The translations under genes and the position numbers were made by a program. From Methanohalobium evestigatum Z-7303 (lineage in GTDB: Archaea > Halobacteriota > Methanosarcinia > Methanosarcinales > Methanosarcinaceae), in assembly GCF_000196655.1 (NCBI RefSeq), contig NC_014253.1, positions 1,054,001-1,118,000 of the forward strand: DNA of 64,000 bases. The letters are read 5' to 3'. A model generated the notes under the pieces. It did no database searches, was not told the DNA's origin, and saw only the letters and a program-made list of their open reading frames with translations. Numbering within the stretch: position 1 is the first letter of the stretch; each line of letters begins with the position of its first letter. Of the stretch, positions 16,426 through 62,968 are shown one piece after another.

Positions 16426-16455
16426 AATAGTCACCACTGATTATTGTTTCTATTT

Positions 16456-16572
16456 TACGAAAGTGGGGCAACAGGGGTAAGTGAAAGCCAACGACTTTAG
16501 TCGTTCTCTTTAAATCAAGGATTTAAAGATATCTTTAAACTCCGTTTAAAGAGTGATTAAACAACCCCGTTG
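16456..16572 (+). repeat. multi-hairpin element, copy 1 (upstream of tnpB 1)
   Basis: An outer stem pairs CAACAGGGGT (16469-16478) with ACCCCGTTG (16564-16572). It encloses three perfect hairpins: AACGAC/GTCGTT (16490-16505), CTTTAAATC/GATTTAAAG (16508-16528, 3-base loop) and TCTTTAAAC/GTTTAAAGA (16532-16552, 3-base loop). A 37-base left segment beginning at 16456 is shared almost exactly with the reversed copy near 31.3 kb. The element lies about 90 bases before tnpB 1. It may be a left transposon end or a structured RNA. The first hairpin resembles the right-end hairpin of TnpB element 3 (62255-62274). Confidence 0.75.
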
Positions 16573-16665
16573 ATGTTTGATAAGTTTTATGATAAACATT
16601 ATAATCGCTAACATTAGGTAAAAATTATATAGTTTCAACACGTATAATCAGTATCAGGTAAGTGG

Positions 16666-18012
16666 GTGGAGTCGATAGTTCGTAAAGAAGGTCAAAACTG
16701 CAGGAATCTGAGATTCAAGATACATCCTACTCTTGAACAGGAGAAGAAACTGAATGAAACTTTAGAGTACTGCAGGTCGACCTGGAACCATCTTCTGTCC
16801 ATCAGAGTAGATTTATACGATAGGTTTGATCTGTCAGTATCTAAATCATCTCTGGAAAAATACCTGAAAAATCTGGACTATCCTATACATTCATCAGTAA
16901 GACTGGATGTATTCCAGAGATTATGTTCCGCTTATGACAAGTTTTTTGATGATATCAAGAACGGGAGACTGAAAAACACCAAACCTAAAAAAGGGATGTT
17001 CGTCAAGAGAAAAGACATACCATGTGGGAACAATTCATCCGGATTTATCAAATACGATGGAATTCTTCCGAAAGGTCACCCGAAGTTCAAGAGTAAAGAA
17101 GATTTCAGTAGTTTCAGATATAAACAGCATGGAAACGGGTGGAAACTTGAAGATAACAAGTTATACCTATCCAAAATAACCGGTAAATCAAATCTCATCA
17201 AAATTGATATTGACAGATTGCCAGATGGTGAACTGAAGACCTGTACCCTCAAGAAGGAAGGCAAACAATGGTTCGCATATCTGACAGTAGAATTGCCAGA
17301 AAACCCAGTTCCATCTACTCCAGAAAACGCTGTTGGCATAGACTTAGGACTGAAATCTTTCATAACAACTTCAAACGATGATTTTGTCGAACCACCACGA
17401 TTCCTCAGGAAAGCTGAGAAAAGGCTTGCTAAAGAACAGCGAAAATTGTCGAGAATGGAATTCAAATCAAACAACTATAAAAAGCAGAAGCAAAAAGTGA
17501 ACAGGATTCACAGGAAAGTAGCATCTGCTAGAAACCATTTCTCACATTGTTTGAGCAAATTGTTGGTTGAGAAATACGACCTGATTGTATTCGAGGATCT
17601 AAAAATAAAAAATCTTGTTAAAAATAACAAACTGGCTAAATCAATCTCCGATGTAAGCTGGAACAAACTGGTTCAGCATGTGACCTATAAAGCTGCTGAA
17701 AGAGGTAAGATTGTAGACAAGATTAATCCCGACAATACTACACAGGTCTGTTCTCATTGCGGAACCAAGAAAAAAGAGAAACTGAGATTGGGTGATAGAA
17801 TATTCTACTGCAGTAAATGTGGATTAGAAATCGACAGGGATCTTAATGCTGCAGTCAATATTCTGACAAAATCATCGTACTATAACCCAATGCATACCGT
17901 GGGGCTCGCGGGAATGAACGGCTGTGGAGATGGTGCCTCTACGACTGGTCTCGGTATCGGTTCGCAAGTACCGCCGATGAATCAGCAAACGCTCAACCTA
18001 TTAAGAGGTTGA
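16666..18012 (+). CDS. tnpB: TnpB, IS200/IS605 family (zinc-ribbon subtype)
   Basis: A 448-residue TnpB, the RNA-guided nuclease of IS200/IS605 (IS1341-type) elements and relative of Cas12. The RuvC catalytic residues are intact: Asp226 in VGIDLGLKSF, Glu310 in LIVFEDLKI, and the Asp of IDRDLNAAVN (about 390-392). The zinc ribbon is complete (CSHC at 362-365 and CSKC at 382-385). The N-terminus has the FKIHPTLEQEKKLNETL helix-turn-helix typical of the family. The C-terminal tail (GCGDGASTTGLGIGSQVP) overlaps the region expected to encode the guide-RNA scaffold. No tnpA transposase accompanies it. GTG start at 16666 is uncertain. Confidence 0.9.
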   Translation: MESIVRKEGQNCRNLRFKIHPTLEQEKKLNETLEYCRSTWNHLLSIRVDLYDRFDLSVSKSSLEKYLKNLDYPIHSSVRLDVFQRLCSAYDKFFDDIKNGRLKNTKPKKGMFVKRKDIPCGNNSSGFIKYDGILPKGHPKFKSKEDFSSFRYKQHGNGWKLEDNKLYLSKITGKSNLIKIDIDRLPDGELKTCTLKKEGKQWFAYLTVELPENPVPSTPENAVGIDLGLKSFITTSNDDFVEPPRFLRKAEKRLAKEQRKLSRMEFKSNNYKKQKQKVNRIHRKVASARNHFSHCLSKLLVEKYDLIVFEDLKIKNLVKNNKLAKSISDVSWNKLVQHVTYKAAERGKIVDKINPDNTTQVCSHCGTKKKEKLRLGDRIFYCSKCGLEIDRDLNAAVNILTKSSYYNPMHTVGLAGMNGCGDGASTTGLGIGSQVPPMNQQTLNLLRG

Positions 18013-18027
18013 GGCTCTCAAAAGAAC

Positions 18028-18046
18028 CCCACGATTTAGTCGTGGG
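18028..18046 (+). repeat. right-end hairpin of TnpB element 1
   Basis: CCCACGA (18028-18034) and TCGTGGG (18040-18046) form a perfect 7-bp stem with a TTTAG loop. It lies 15 bases after the tnpB stop, the position of right-end hairpins in IS200/IS605 elements. The guide-RNA scaffold would end just after it, near 18055. Confidence 0.6.
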
Positions 18047-18061
18047 AGAGTAGTCAGTTAA

Positions 18062-30699: not shown

Positions 30700-30935
30700 A
30701 AGTAGGGTCAACTACTAACCGCTAAACCGGTTAGCTTGTCCTTCCATCTCTTAACTTCGACTACTAGCAGAAGCTAAGCGGAGGACATTAGGAAGGCTGA
30801 CAGCTCCCATATTGCGTTGTTCTATCGGGATTCAGTTTAACTTTCAGAGTTAGAAGCATGTTATCCCAAAATATGTTATACACATATAAACTAAAACAGG
30901 AAGCCACTTGGTCTTTAGCCAAGTGGTAGTTCACA
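30700..30935 (+). ncRNA. candidate structured ncRNA or miniature IS200/IS605-type element
   Basis: No open frame is convincing here, but the sequence folds well: CTAACCG/CGGTTAG (30715-30734, 6-base loop); a long irregular hairpin TGTCCTTC/GGAGGACA (30737-30787) enclosing CTTAACTTC/GAAGCTAAG; and CCACTTGG/CCAAGTGG (30904-30926) with the loop TCTTTAG. The last hairpin, followed by TAGTTCAC, looks like an IS200/IS605 right end. A good promoter lies 25 bases upstream. Conserved motifs of RNase P RNA and of the SRP RNA apical loop were not found. Both a stable RNA and an internally deleted transposon are possible. Confidence 0.45.
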
Positions 30936-31130
30936 GCTACTATGCATCACTGTCTGCACCGCATCGTTTGTGCTCGACACCAGGCAGTATTTGATGGAAC
31001 CTGATGATACACAAACAACTGATTAAACAATGTCTTACATCAGGCAACTTGCTTAAAGCAATTGTACACTGAAAGCATTGCTACATCTATAATACTGTAT
31101 ATACAATACTAAAATAAAAAAAAATATTGA
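30936..31130 (+). other. intergenic, further inverted repeats, no gene seen
   Basis: Inverted repeats continue: CTGTCTG (30950-30956) with CAGGCAG (30981-30987), and CCTGATG (31000-31006) with CATCAGG (31038-31044). They might belong to the same transcript as 30700-30935. No coding potential is seen. Confidence 0.35.
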
Positions 31131-31146
31131 TTCAAAAAGCAATAAC

Positions 31147-31301
31147 CAACGGGGTTGTTTCATCATTCTTTAAACTTCGTTTAAAGATATTGGTAAATTT
31201 TCAATTTACCAAGTTTAAGTTTAACTCTAAATTTTTTAATTTAGAGTGTTTTGATTTAAAGAAAACGGTTAGAAACCGTTGGCTTTCACGTACCCCTGTT
31301 G
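31147..31301 (-). repeat. multi-hairpin element, copy 2 (solo, reversed)
   Basis: Read on the minus strand, the outer stem CAACAGGGGT/ACCCCGTTG is the same as in copy 1. It encloses a first hairpin AACGG...CCGTT, two extra hairpins not in the other copies (ACTCTAAATT/AATTTAGAGT and TGGTAAAT/ATTTACCA), and the last hairpin TCTTTAAAC/GTTTAAAGA. About 37 bases beyond the first outer strand, starting ACGAAAGTGGGG, match copy 1. No tnpB gene is attached. Confidence 0.7.
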
Positions 31302-31452
31302 CCCCACTTTCGTAATCAATTTGTTCAGTCTATCCTAATTTAGATTATAATCCTAACCTTTACACCATTACGACTAAATATTTAAATAGTTATATGGTTA
31401 TTCGAGTGAAAATTTTATAATAACAGCAGTTTAAAAGTATCGGAATGCAACC

Positions 31453-60726: not shown

Positions 60727-60800
60727 TATTAAGGCTTTGGTCGTTAATATAATTTATCAACAAGTTAAGGTATGTTAAAGTTCATGAGAAAGGGGTATAG

Positions 60801-60897
60801 GGGGTCAAAGGAAACCAACGACTTTAGTCGTTCTCCTTAAATCAAAGATTTAAGGATATCTTTAAACTTGGTTTAAAGAGTGAGGAATTTAGACCCC
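60801..60897 (+). repeat. multi-hairpin element, copy 3 (upstream of tnpB 3)
   Basis: The outer stem GGGGTC (60801-60806) pairs with GACCCC (60892-60897). It encloses AACGAC/GTCGTT (60817-60832), CCTTAAATC/GATTTAAGG (60835-60855) and TCTTTAAAC/GTTTAAAGA. Compared with copy 1, the second stem changes T-A to C-G on both strands, and the outer stem has different bases that still pair. It lies about 55 bases before the tnpB 3 start. Confidence 0.75.
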
Positions 60898-60952
60898 ATT
60901 GCTTAAAAGAACAAAATTTTTTATTTTAGGAAAACATTATATATATAATACA

Positions 60953-62245
60953 ATGAAAATCACCACCAAAAACTATCTACGGATGAACAAGCAGCAGTAC
61001 TGGATAGTTGACACTTTGAGTAAACTATCCAAAAACCTGTATAATGTCGGGGTGTACAATGTCCGACAGTACTATTTCTACAATAACAAGTTCTTACCGT
61101 ACACCAATAATTACCATTATTGCAAGGATAATGATAATTACAGCCTGTTATATAGCGATAATGCTCAACAGATTCTCAAAATCGTAGATAGGACTTTCAA
61201 GAGCTATTTCAGACTGCTTAAAGAAAGGAAAAAAGGAAACTACAACCGACCCATTAATACACCAGGTTACTTGGACAAAAATGGACGGTTTGTATTGATA
61301 TATCCCGCTCAAAGAATGTCTATTAAGGGTAGATATTTCAAACTAGGCATGAGTAGGGAATTCAAAAAGCAGTACGGACTTAATGGTGATGAATTAACTT
61401 TCAAACTACCCGACCATATCAATCCTGATGAATTGAAAGAAGTCAGGATTGTTCCAAAACATGACGGTAAATTCTACCAGATGCAGTATGTATATGATAA
61501 AAAACTACAAGACATGAATCTTGATAAAAATCAATATCTATCAATCGATTTAGGTCTTGATAATTTTGCAACCTTTGTGGAAACATCCACAGGTACAGCC
61601 GAGATAATTGACGGTAAACACATCAAATCCATTAACCAGTTCTACAACAAAGAAAAGGCAAGGTTGCAGGGTGTGAAAGACAAACAGGGTATGGAACACA
61701 AGTTCACCAAAAGATTGAGTAGGCTTACTAATAAGCGAGATAACAAGGTGGACGAGTTCCTGAACAGGTCGGTTGATTACATTGTTAAAACCTGTATAGA
61801 TAAAGACATCGGCAACATTGTTATCGGTGAACTGAAAGAAATCAAACAGGAACAGAATATCGGTAAAAAGAACAATCAGAATTTCCAGAGCATACCATAT
61901 TTCCTGTTCAAAAGTAAACTACAGTCCAAATGTGATTTGTACGGAATCAACTACATAGAAGAGGACGAATCCTATACAAGTAAAACCGATGCACTGTCTC
62001 TGGAACCCATCAGAAAACATGAAGAATATATGGGTAGAAGAATCAAGAGAGGACTGTTCAAGTCTTCCACCGGTCAATTGCTCAATGCCGATGTTAATGG
62101 TGCATTAAATATCTTAAGAAAAGTAGTCGGTGATTCAATCCAAAGGATAACCGATAGAGGTCTCGTCAGCAGACCGGAGAGAATAAGGGTTACTTTCGAA
62201 CCTGAAAAGCGACCAGCCTTCTCTCGAATTAAATTGTCAGTTTAA
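60953..62245 (+). CDS. tnpB: TnpB, IS200/IS605 family (subtype without zinc ribbon)
   Basis: A 430-residue TnpB related to the one at 40994. RuvC residues are in LSIDLGLDNFATFVE (Asp), IGNIVIGELKEIKQE (Glu) and LNADVNGALNIL (Asp). SYTSKTDALSLEP and EEYMGRRIKRGLFKSS replace the zinc ribbon, with no Cys at all there. ATG at 60953 is chosen; upstream in-frame codons lie in the multi-hairpin element. The hairpin at 62255-62274 marks its right end. It abuts a truncated histidine kinase. Confidence 0.9.
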   Translation: MKITTKNYLRMNKQQYWIVDTLSKLSKNLYNVGVYNVRQYYFYNNKFLPYTNNYHYCKDNDNYSLLYSDNAQQILKIVDRTFKSYFRLLKERKKGNYNRPINTPGYLDKNGRFVLIYPAQRMSIKGRYFKLGMSREFKKQYGLNGDELTFKLPDHINPDELKEVRIVPKHDGKFYQMQYVYDKKLQDMNLDKNQYLSIDLGLDNFATFVETSTGTAEIIDGKHIKSINQFYNKEKARLQGVKDKQGMEHKFTKRLSRLTNKRDNKVDEFLNRSVDYIVKTCIDKDIGNIVIGELKEIKQEQNIGKKNNQNFQSIPYFLFKSKLQSKCDLYGINYIEEDESYTSKTDALSLEPIRKHEEYMGRRIKRGLFKSSTGQLLNADVNGALNILRKVVGDSIQRITDRGLVSRPERIRVTFEPEKRPAFSRIKLSV

Positions 62246-62254
62246 CCTGACAAG

Positions 62255-62274
62255 CCAACGACTTTAGTCGTTGG
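62255..62274 (+). repeat. right-end hairpin of TnpB element 3
   Basis: CCAACGAC (62255-62262) and GTCGTTGG (62267-62274) form a perfect 8-bp stem with a TTTA loop. It is nearly identical to the first hairpin of the upstream multi-hairpin elements at 16490 and 60817. The element probably ends within about ten bases after it. Confidence 0.65.
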
Positions 62275-62281
62275 TAGCTGA

Positions 62282-62968
62282 CCTAGAGAACTGGAAAAAT
62301 CAAACCAATTCAAAGACACTTTTACCGATATTATAAGACACGACCTTTTAAACCCTGTAACTGTTGTAGACGGCTACACAAAGTTGTTAATTAAGAAGGA
62401 ACAAGACGATAACAAGGTTCATCTACTTAATAAGATACAATCAAGCAACAACAAGGTTATAGAATTGCTTGAAAATGCAACGGAATTTGCAAAACTGGAA
62501 AACATAGATAACGTGGAATTCGAAAATAGAGATATTATTGAGATAATCAAAAAGGTTGTTAATGATTTCCAGTACCAGTTAAATAGTAAAAATCTTAAAG
62601 TCGAGATATTAACAGATAAGAAACATTTATGCAAAATCAATTCAATGGTTGAGCAGGCATTTGCTAATTTGTTGTCAAATGCTATCAAATATAGTCCTGA
62701 TAATAGTACAATTAAAGTTTATGTTGAAGATGAGGGTCATTATTGGAAAATTAATGTAGCAGATTTTGGAGCCGGTATTCCTGATGAAGACAAACCCCAT
62801 CTTTTCGATAGGTTCTCAAGAAAAGATAAGAAGGGTATCAAGGGTACAGGATTTGGGCTGGCTATAGTAAAAATGATTGTGCATATTCATGGTGGAGAGG
62901 TGGGAGTTACGGATAACTCTGAGGGAAATGGTTCTGTTTTTTGGTTTACTCTTGAAAAAAGAGTATAA
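62282..62968 (+). pseudogene. 5'-truncated histidine kinase
   Basis: The frame opens right after the TnpB element (TGA at 62279-62281) and reads RELEKSNQFKDTFTDIIRHDLLNPVTVV (HisKA with acceptor His), then a HATPase with NAIKYSPDN, DFGAGIPDEDKP and GTGFGLAIVKMI. It ends at TAA 62968. There are no PAS or GAF sensor domains and no good start; the first in-frame TTG is at 62384. It closely resembles the kinase at 45892. The N-terminal half is not on the other side of the element, so it was lost or moved. Confidence 0.8.

Follow-up and report, generated by a model that had tools for sequence, protein, structure and literature searches.

The window analyzed here comprises 64,000 nucleotides (positions 1,054,001 to 1,118,000 of NC_014253.1) of the 2.24-Mb chromosome (C1) of the halophilic methanogen Methanohalobium evestigatum Z-7303, the genome of which also includes a 164-kb second contig (C2). 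Inspection of the sequence confirmed three hairpin arrays described in an earlier note, at 16469–16572, 31147–31301 (minus strand), and 60801–60897 (copies 1, 2, and 3). Folded as single-stranded DNA, they gave z = −5.2, −4.7, and −6.0, none of 200 shuffles being equally stable, and RNA folding agreed on the strong stability. The second stem reads CTTTAAATC/GATTTAAAG in copy 1 and CCTTAAATC/GATTTAAGG in copy 3 with pairing kept, and the outer stems of these two copies differ as well, both as the earlier note had written.

All three arrays are the left ends (LE) of IS200/IS605-type TnpB elements. The suggestion of a transposon end made in the earlier note was thus right, the borders being proven by empty sites for copies 1 and 2 and the array including the palindrome IP_L. 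About 76 TnpB genes or remnants are spread over the 2.4 Mb of the genome, together with three Y1 tnpA loci (two intact, at C1:1425927 and C1:1814656, both beside tnpB, and one broken). TnpB families were named by N-terminal sequence as A (copy 1), B, D, E, Ep, E3 (copy 3), F, G, and H. The nearest genome used for empty-site comparison was a Methanohalobium MAG of the same genus (G001, the sister genome). No literature on Methanohalobium together with TnpB was found. Element 1 has the following features:

16455–16458, plus strand: left cleavage sequence TTAC, the target, retained on the left side of element 1
16459–18057, plus strand: element 1, a TnpB-only transposon of the IS200/IS605 group carrying copy 1; both borders from an empty orthologous site (G001:C147)
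16469–16572, plus strand: array with the outer stem of LE 1, CAACAGGGGT (16469–16478) pairing with ACCCCGTTG (16564–16572) in the DNA fold
16483–16487, plus strand: GAAAG directly 5' of the IP_L foot, like the left guide AAAG of IS608 (PMC5934647)
16488–16505, plus strand: IP_L, CCAACGACTTTAGTCGTT; its GG foot is altered beside the insertion in comparison with empty LEs (CCAACGGTTTCTAACCGTTGG)
16506–16553, plus strand: 48-bp twin-hairpin module in IP_L (copy 1), from a covariance-model match (74.4 bits) and gap-free empty-site alignments
16666–18012, plus strand: tnpB 1, 448 amino acids, two CxxC motifs (zinc ribbon), Pfam OrfB_IS605 (4.5e-30) and Cas12f1-like_TNB
18028–18057, plus strand: right end 1 with IP_R CCCACGATTTAGTCGTGGG (18028–18046) and terminal TCAG, from the sequence and the empty site

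In the sister genome, the empty site reads TTTTAC directly followed by TTAATTAGTC. Element 1 therefore covers exactly 16459–18057, with TTAC retained and no duplication.

30707–31311, minus strand: element 2, 605 bp, non-autonomous, with its TTAC target at 31312–31315; borders from an empty site (G001:C15)
31264–31282, minus strand: IP_L of element 2, from sequence and fold

Copy 2 had been called solo. It does lack a tnpB gene, but instead of being an isolated array it is the LE of this complete element ending at 30707, which combines an A/H-type LE, an F-type tnpB remnant (detected by tblastn), and an F-type right end. Within element 2, a B-type right end (GCCACTTGGTCTTTAGCCAAGTGGTAGTTCAC, window 30880–30937, plus strand) is a remnant of another transposon.

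60786–62282, plus strand: element 3, TnpB-only, with copy 3 and the TTCAT target at 60781–60785; ends by homology to other E3/F ends
60801–60897, plus strand: outer stem of LE 3, GGGGTC (60801–60806) pairing with GACCCC (60892–60897) in the DNA fold
60815–60832, plus strand: IP_L of element 3, from sequence
60833–60880, plus strand: 48-bp twin-hairpin module (covariance-model match, 76.7 bits)
60953–62245, plus strand: tnpB 3, 430 amino acids, without CxxC (CxxC scan), Pfam OrfB_IS605 (3.9e-21)
62255–62282, plus strand: right end 3, CCAACGACTTTAGTCGTTGG and then TAGCTGAC

The left flank of element 3 matches a sister contig up to near the insertion; a contiguous empty site was not found in the sister genome. 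Directly after the element lies an N-terminally truncated histidine kinase gene (window 62283–62968), presumably broken by the insertion of element 3 or by an earlier event.

TnpB 1 and TnpB 3 had been assigned to different families sharing one 5' element. The difference held, with no significant similarity in blastp (E 0.21), and the CxxC scan found no zinc-ribbon motif in representatives of families D, E, Ep, and E3. What the two have in common on the 5' side is only the plan and an inserted module; the LE sequences themselves differ (TTAC versus TTCAT target types).

Simple versions of the LE have one hairpin (TTAC-GAAAGTGGGGCAACAGGGGTACGTGAAAGCCAACGGTTTCTAACCGTTGGATGAAACAACCCCGTTGG) and consist of TTAC, a GAAAG guide immediately 5' to the foot of the palindrome, the IP_L palindrome, and an outer stem. 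Empty sites were also obtained for an Ep element (TTTAT) and an F element (TCAC); like elements 1 and 2 (TTAC), both lie 3' of a short target that is not duplicated. Subterminal palindromes have their guide 5' of the foot (16483–16505; IP_R 18028–18046), and IS608 has a TTAC target and the guide AAAG at corresponding places (PMC5934647). The LEs thus resemble those of IS608 and ISDra2 in TTAC at the left flank, the GAAAG-type guide 5' of the palindrome, the absence of target duplication, and a second hairpin 3' of IP_L. They differ in that IP_L is broken up by an inserted unit, and in that one LE type is common to several TnpB families and to chimeric non-autonomous elements. Copy 2 and the element at C2:140796 are short, with IS605-type ends and deleted cores, as are palindrome-associated transposable elements (PATEs, PMC3119063), a term that fits the host element and not the inserted module. 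The latter element (C2:140682–140796, L264) is minimal, an A/H-type left end being joined to a B-type right end at a common GGATGAAACA, which suggests end swapping by recombination.

A twin-hairpin module in transposon palindromes

The earlier note had read each array as one shared element and missed its two layers: the outer stem and the first hairpin are the transposon end, and the later hairpins are a separately inserted, separately mobile unit. We hold with considerable confidence that the extra hairpins are a module of 48–50 bp placed in IP_L without target duplication rather than a part of the LE. The module is a distinct transposase-free mobile micro-element. Its plan comprises two stems of 9–10 bp with 3-nt loops, TA between them, and C...G at the tips. 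The 50-bp form consists, with few deviations, of C, a 23-nt hairpin (10-bp stem, 3-nt loop), TA, a second 23-nt hairpin, and G, and in the 48-bp form one stem has 9 bp. It is too short to encode a transposase and has inverted-repeat ends, of the CTCTTTAAA...TTTAAAGAG type in LE modules.

The three copies first noticed proved a large undercount. A nucleotide search of the genome gave 73 matches, copy 1 having dozens of partial relatives genome-wide, and a covariance-model search, as the earlier note had advised, identified 35 module sites in this genome and 41, similarly placed, in the sister genome. The 35 sites comprise 17 LE IP_L arrays, 7 B-type right ends (between guide and IP_R, at the IP_R foot), 10 positions in the E-type 3'/omega region, and one tnpB gene, a distribution that favors near-terminal palindromes of IS605-type elements. 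In neither genome was a module found in ordinary chromosome; all lie within TnpB-element sequence, which makes up about 5% of the chromosome by a rough estimate, yet holds every module. The core pattern of a single hairpin matched 46 times versus 7 times in a reversed control, and the four matches outside modules look like chance.

In a search of 84,980 species genomes, the exact stem pattern was found on 48 contigs; those of Methanohalobium alone recur in quantity, and the other matches are mostly isolated and, judged from pattern matches alone, look like chance. With the covariance model, no module was detected in the other genomes among 60 relatives, and the R1 model found it in 2 of 295 genomes of the phylum and in none of the other 293, both searches using strict filters that may lose weak matches. 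A plasmid collection, from which near relatives may be missing, gave no match.

Filled and empty versions coexist within families. Most LEs of family H have an uninterrupted IP_L, and one copy with an intact gene has 48 bp more; family F has some empty and some filled copies, as do Ep left ends, B right ends, and E 3' regions. When the flanks of filled copies were joined, they equaled the empty copies with zero gap, no target duplication, and no deletion at five positions (H and F IP_L, Ep IP_L, the B right end, and the E omega region), each represented by 4–11 distinct empty sequences. At a sixth position, the coding sequence of a G-family tnpB is interrupted at a site not inside a strong hairpin; here, empty relatives align at a lower identity of about 85%. 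Counted from junction types, there were at least six or seven independent insertions.

At C1:2232900, an E element is interrupted by an F element, at one and the same nucleotide in both species, and exactly 48 bp present in the IP_L of the F element here are absent in the sister genome. Gene conversion from another filled copy could explain this difference. B-type filled right ends occur at seven different loci with near-identical modules, so that filled transposons have either moved or been converted many times.

In the E omega region, modules would shorten the TnpB C terminus from RIRLSR to RTL, as deduced from the sequence. At six loci (C1:1142279, 1533411, 1559917, 2059806, and 2232609; C2:60038), tnpB has at its 3' end a GGAAGAA/TTCTTCC stem with a module on the loop side; the module there probably lies inside the omegaRNA scaffold and alters the last TnpB residues.

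These sites also bear on the alternative that the extra hairpins belong to the LE as a fixed, functional component, for instance an elaborated second hairpin as in IS608, with empty ends arising by deletion. Filled ends are indeed common, and the second LE hairpin 3' of IP_L in IS608, ISDra2, and IS605, which tunes targeting, is a precedent (PMC5934647). The module is, however, not confined to the LE: the omega region, the position before IP_R, and a tnpB coding sequence contain it as well. In empty ends, IP_L is intact and perfect, a state that deletions would not restore time and again, and lengths of 48–50 bp with zero-gap junctions and orthologous presence/absence point to insertion. We therefore consider a fixed LE part most improbable.

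The module set comprised 43 distinct modules from 69 sites. Covariation was scored on an ungapped set of 23 hairpin units, and a covariance-model-fitted alignment of 144 matches was left out because it mixed both strands of a near-palindrome. Paired changes affect stem positions 1–4 and 10. Two-sided changes were counted in 28 cells versus 5.7 in shuffles, scores that related sequences can inflate; none had changed on one side, and no one-sided G-U state occurred. Stem pairing amounted to 97.4% versus 84% and dropped to 53–58% when the partner was slid by one column. The lack of wobble intermediates suggests that the stems are kept by DNA hairpins or by arm-templated copying.

Architecture, not model score, was the basis for grouping a GC-richer variant (GCATCAAATC/GTTTCATTTC, geometry 23+2+23+2) with the module. 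The variant has the 23+2+23 spacing of the module and is common to Ep, one B element, and a divergent tnpA-tnpB element (C1:1425927–1426280, L144), in the LE of which it is inserted.

Nesting of modules and the structure of copy 2

Modules nest up to three orders deep. The array at C1:1458389 was un-nested in silico into a third-order module of 49 nt, a second-order module of 50 nt, and a first-order, outermost module of 48 nt identical to the copy 3 module. The sister genome has the two-order intermediate state (G001:C70). When compared with arrays of one to three orders, copy 2 resolved as follows:

31249–31263, minus strand: 5' arm plus loop of the first hairpin, left over from the first-order module
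31214–31248, minus strand: truncated second-order module, CACTCTAAATTAAAAAATTTAGAGTTAAACTTAAA, equal to the first part of the 50-nt second-order module
31166–31213, minus strand: third-order module with the TTGGTAAATT hairpin (covariance-model match)

The second hairpin of the third-order module appears to be fused with the first-order one by deletion. Copy 2 is thus best read as a nest that would have collapsed by deletion between two module hairpins.

DNA or RNA, and the spread of modules

The earlier note had favored a maintained structured RNA, possibly related to guide RNAs. As a rival to the insertion of modules, this reading makes the array a 5' regulator of tnpB or a guide-RNA relative, with stems conserved by selection on RNA. 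It agrees with the perfect stems, the two-sided changes, and the strong folds; arrays always lie on elements that carry, or formerly carried, an RNA-guided nuclease, and some modules do sit in the omegaRNA region. However, among the families with LE modules, A, E3, and F have TATA-like boxes between array and tnpB start, hence downstream of the array; a simple pattern search found none in family H. The array is probably upstream of the tnpB transcript and, the tnpB promoter being apparently downstream of it, most likely works as DNA and not as RNA. Modules of the E omega region, by their position, would be transcribed with tnpB. Further points against the RNA reading are that empty LEs are common within the same families, that near-identical modules occur at unrelated positions (in IP_L, before IP_R, in the omegaRNA region, and in tnpB coding sequence), that G-U intermediates are missing from the two-sided stem changes, and that an Rfam scan of the window matched no family to the array at the gathering threshold. 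A maintained structured RNA is thus highly improbable, and compensatory stem changes near tnpB genes need not imply a functional RNA.

Each array has as its host layer an IS200/IS605-group LE with target tetranucleotide, guide, IP_L, and outer stem. Most likely, the inserted DNA module would enter hairpins exposed as single strands, on the lagging strand or on the transposon circle. The step might be catalyzed in trans by the Y1/HUH TnpA, or the module might be copied from a template at the replication fork. From then on, the host transposon would carry it passively to new loci, as filled elements occupy many loci. A self-nesting hairpin micro-transposon whose targets would be DNA hairpins as such, with insertion into single-stranded transposon DNA directed by structure, and which would also diversify TnpB ends and omegaRNA scaffolds, is advanced here as a tentative possibility. 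We know of no described enzyme for structure-directed insertion into DNA hairpins.

Any one route of mobilization appears doubtful at best. The obvious candidate is Y1 TnpA in trans, given that a related module sits in the LE of an autonomous tnpA-tnpB element. The flanks of the insertion points nevertheless differ (CGTT, TGTT, CATC, GAAG, CTTA, and CTAA) and have no common tetranucleotide. The sequence thus gives no support to target recognition of the Y1 type in trans and argues against ordinary Y1 cleavage. For the same reason, we no longer regard the module as an IS605 MITE that TnpA would cut at a fixed tetranucleotide.

The two hairpins per unit and the presence of Y1 tnpA genes would also fit minimal REPIN-like twin palindromes mobilized by a RAYT-type Y1 transposase. 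REPINs are, however, dispersed in extragenic space, where modules never occur; only three Y1 loci exist, two intact ones beside tnpB and one broken; and there is no GTAG-type tag. This makes such an origin very unlikely.

Alternatively, the module may not be transposed at all: recombination or gene conversion between ends, together with replication slippage on palindromes, may be its sole means of spread. Chimeric ends exist (A/H LEs with F or B right ends), copy 2 resembles a deletion between two module hairpins, and compensatory changes without intermediates could stem from arm-templated repair. Conversion, however, fails to account for the first arrivals, at an exact length of 48–50 bp and without flanking homology, in contexts as unrelated as the B right end, the E omega region, the G coding sequence, and another module. 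Spread by recombination alone is therefore unlikely.

Relation to known small repeats

By description, the kind of element closest to the module would be SMR-A (HqIRS42/43/55) of Haloquadratum walsbyi, three sequence families of about 110 bp with inverted-repeat ends (PMC3119063). They insert without duplication in near-terminal palindromes of IS605-type transposons and derivatives; their mobilization was called enigmatic, and a host-inactivating, host-defense role was proposed (PMC3119063). Both kinds are short, transposase-free repeats with inverted-repeat ends, cause no target duplication, prefer near-terminal IS605-type palindromes, and reside in a hypersaline archaeon. In contrast to SMR-A, the module is half as long (48–50 bp versus about 110 bp), has a strict twin-hairpin geometry with strong stem covariation, and inserts into itself to three orders, whereas insertion of SMR-A into SMR-A was seen once in 114 events (PMC3119063). 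As the defining length differs and the likeness rests on description, the module may be regarded as a smaller, self-nesting variant and not as a member of SMR-A. Whereas SMR-A was proposed to inactivate its hosts, module-filled host elements still occupy many loci, which calls simple host inactivation by such insertions into question.

Small repeats attacking IS605 palindromes had been reported once before, in Haloquadratum, and Methanohalobium is the second lineage. With its clean presence/absence sites, the shorter, strictly symmetrical, self-nesting unit renders the mechanism amenable to testing and suggests that parasites of single-stranded-DNA transposons may fill a general niche, with hairpins as landing sites.

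REPINs with their RAYT Y1 transposases (PMC3116915) are likewise twin palindromes linked to Y1 transposases, but they are extragenic and dispersed, with a tag tetranucleotide, whereas all module sites lie inside transposons. Fungal mtDNA has double-hairpin elements (Paquin et al. 2000, as cited in PMC5910586) that are, like the module, short, transposase-free twin hairpins considered mobile; they differ in being organellar and dispersed. All modules, as described above, lie in TnpB-element sequence. To our knowledge, no preference for transposon ends is known for the fungal elements.

Apart from the module, a larger repeat, also with inverted ends (CTGTCCGACAATT...AATTGTCGGACAG) and mostly about 210 bp long, was observed at C1:1851735, 1774257, 1364571, 1308682, 1149441, and 1270507 (L062, L066, L051, L054, L060, and L052). 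In several LEs, it sits in the IP_L apex; in other cases, it is flanked by left-end and right-end halves, as if the transposon core had been lost by recombination.
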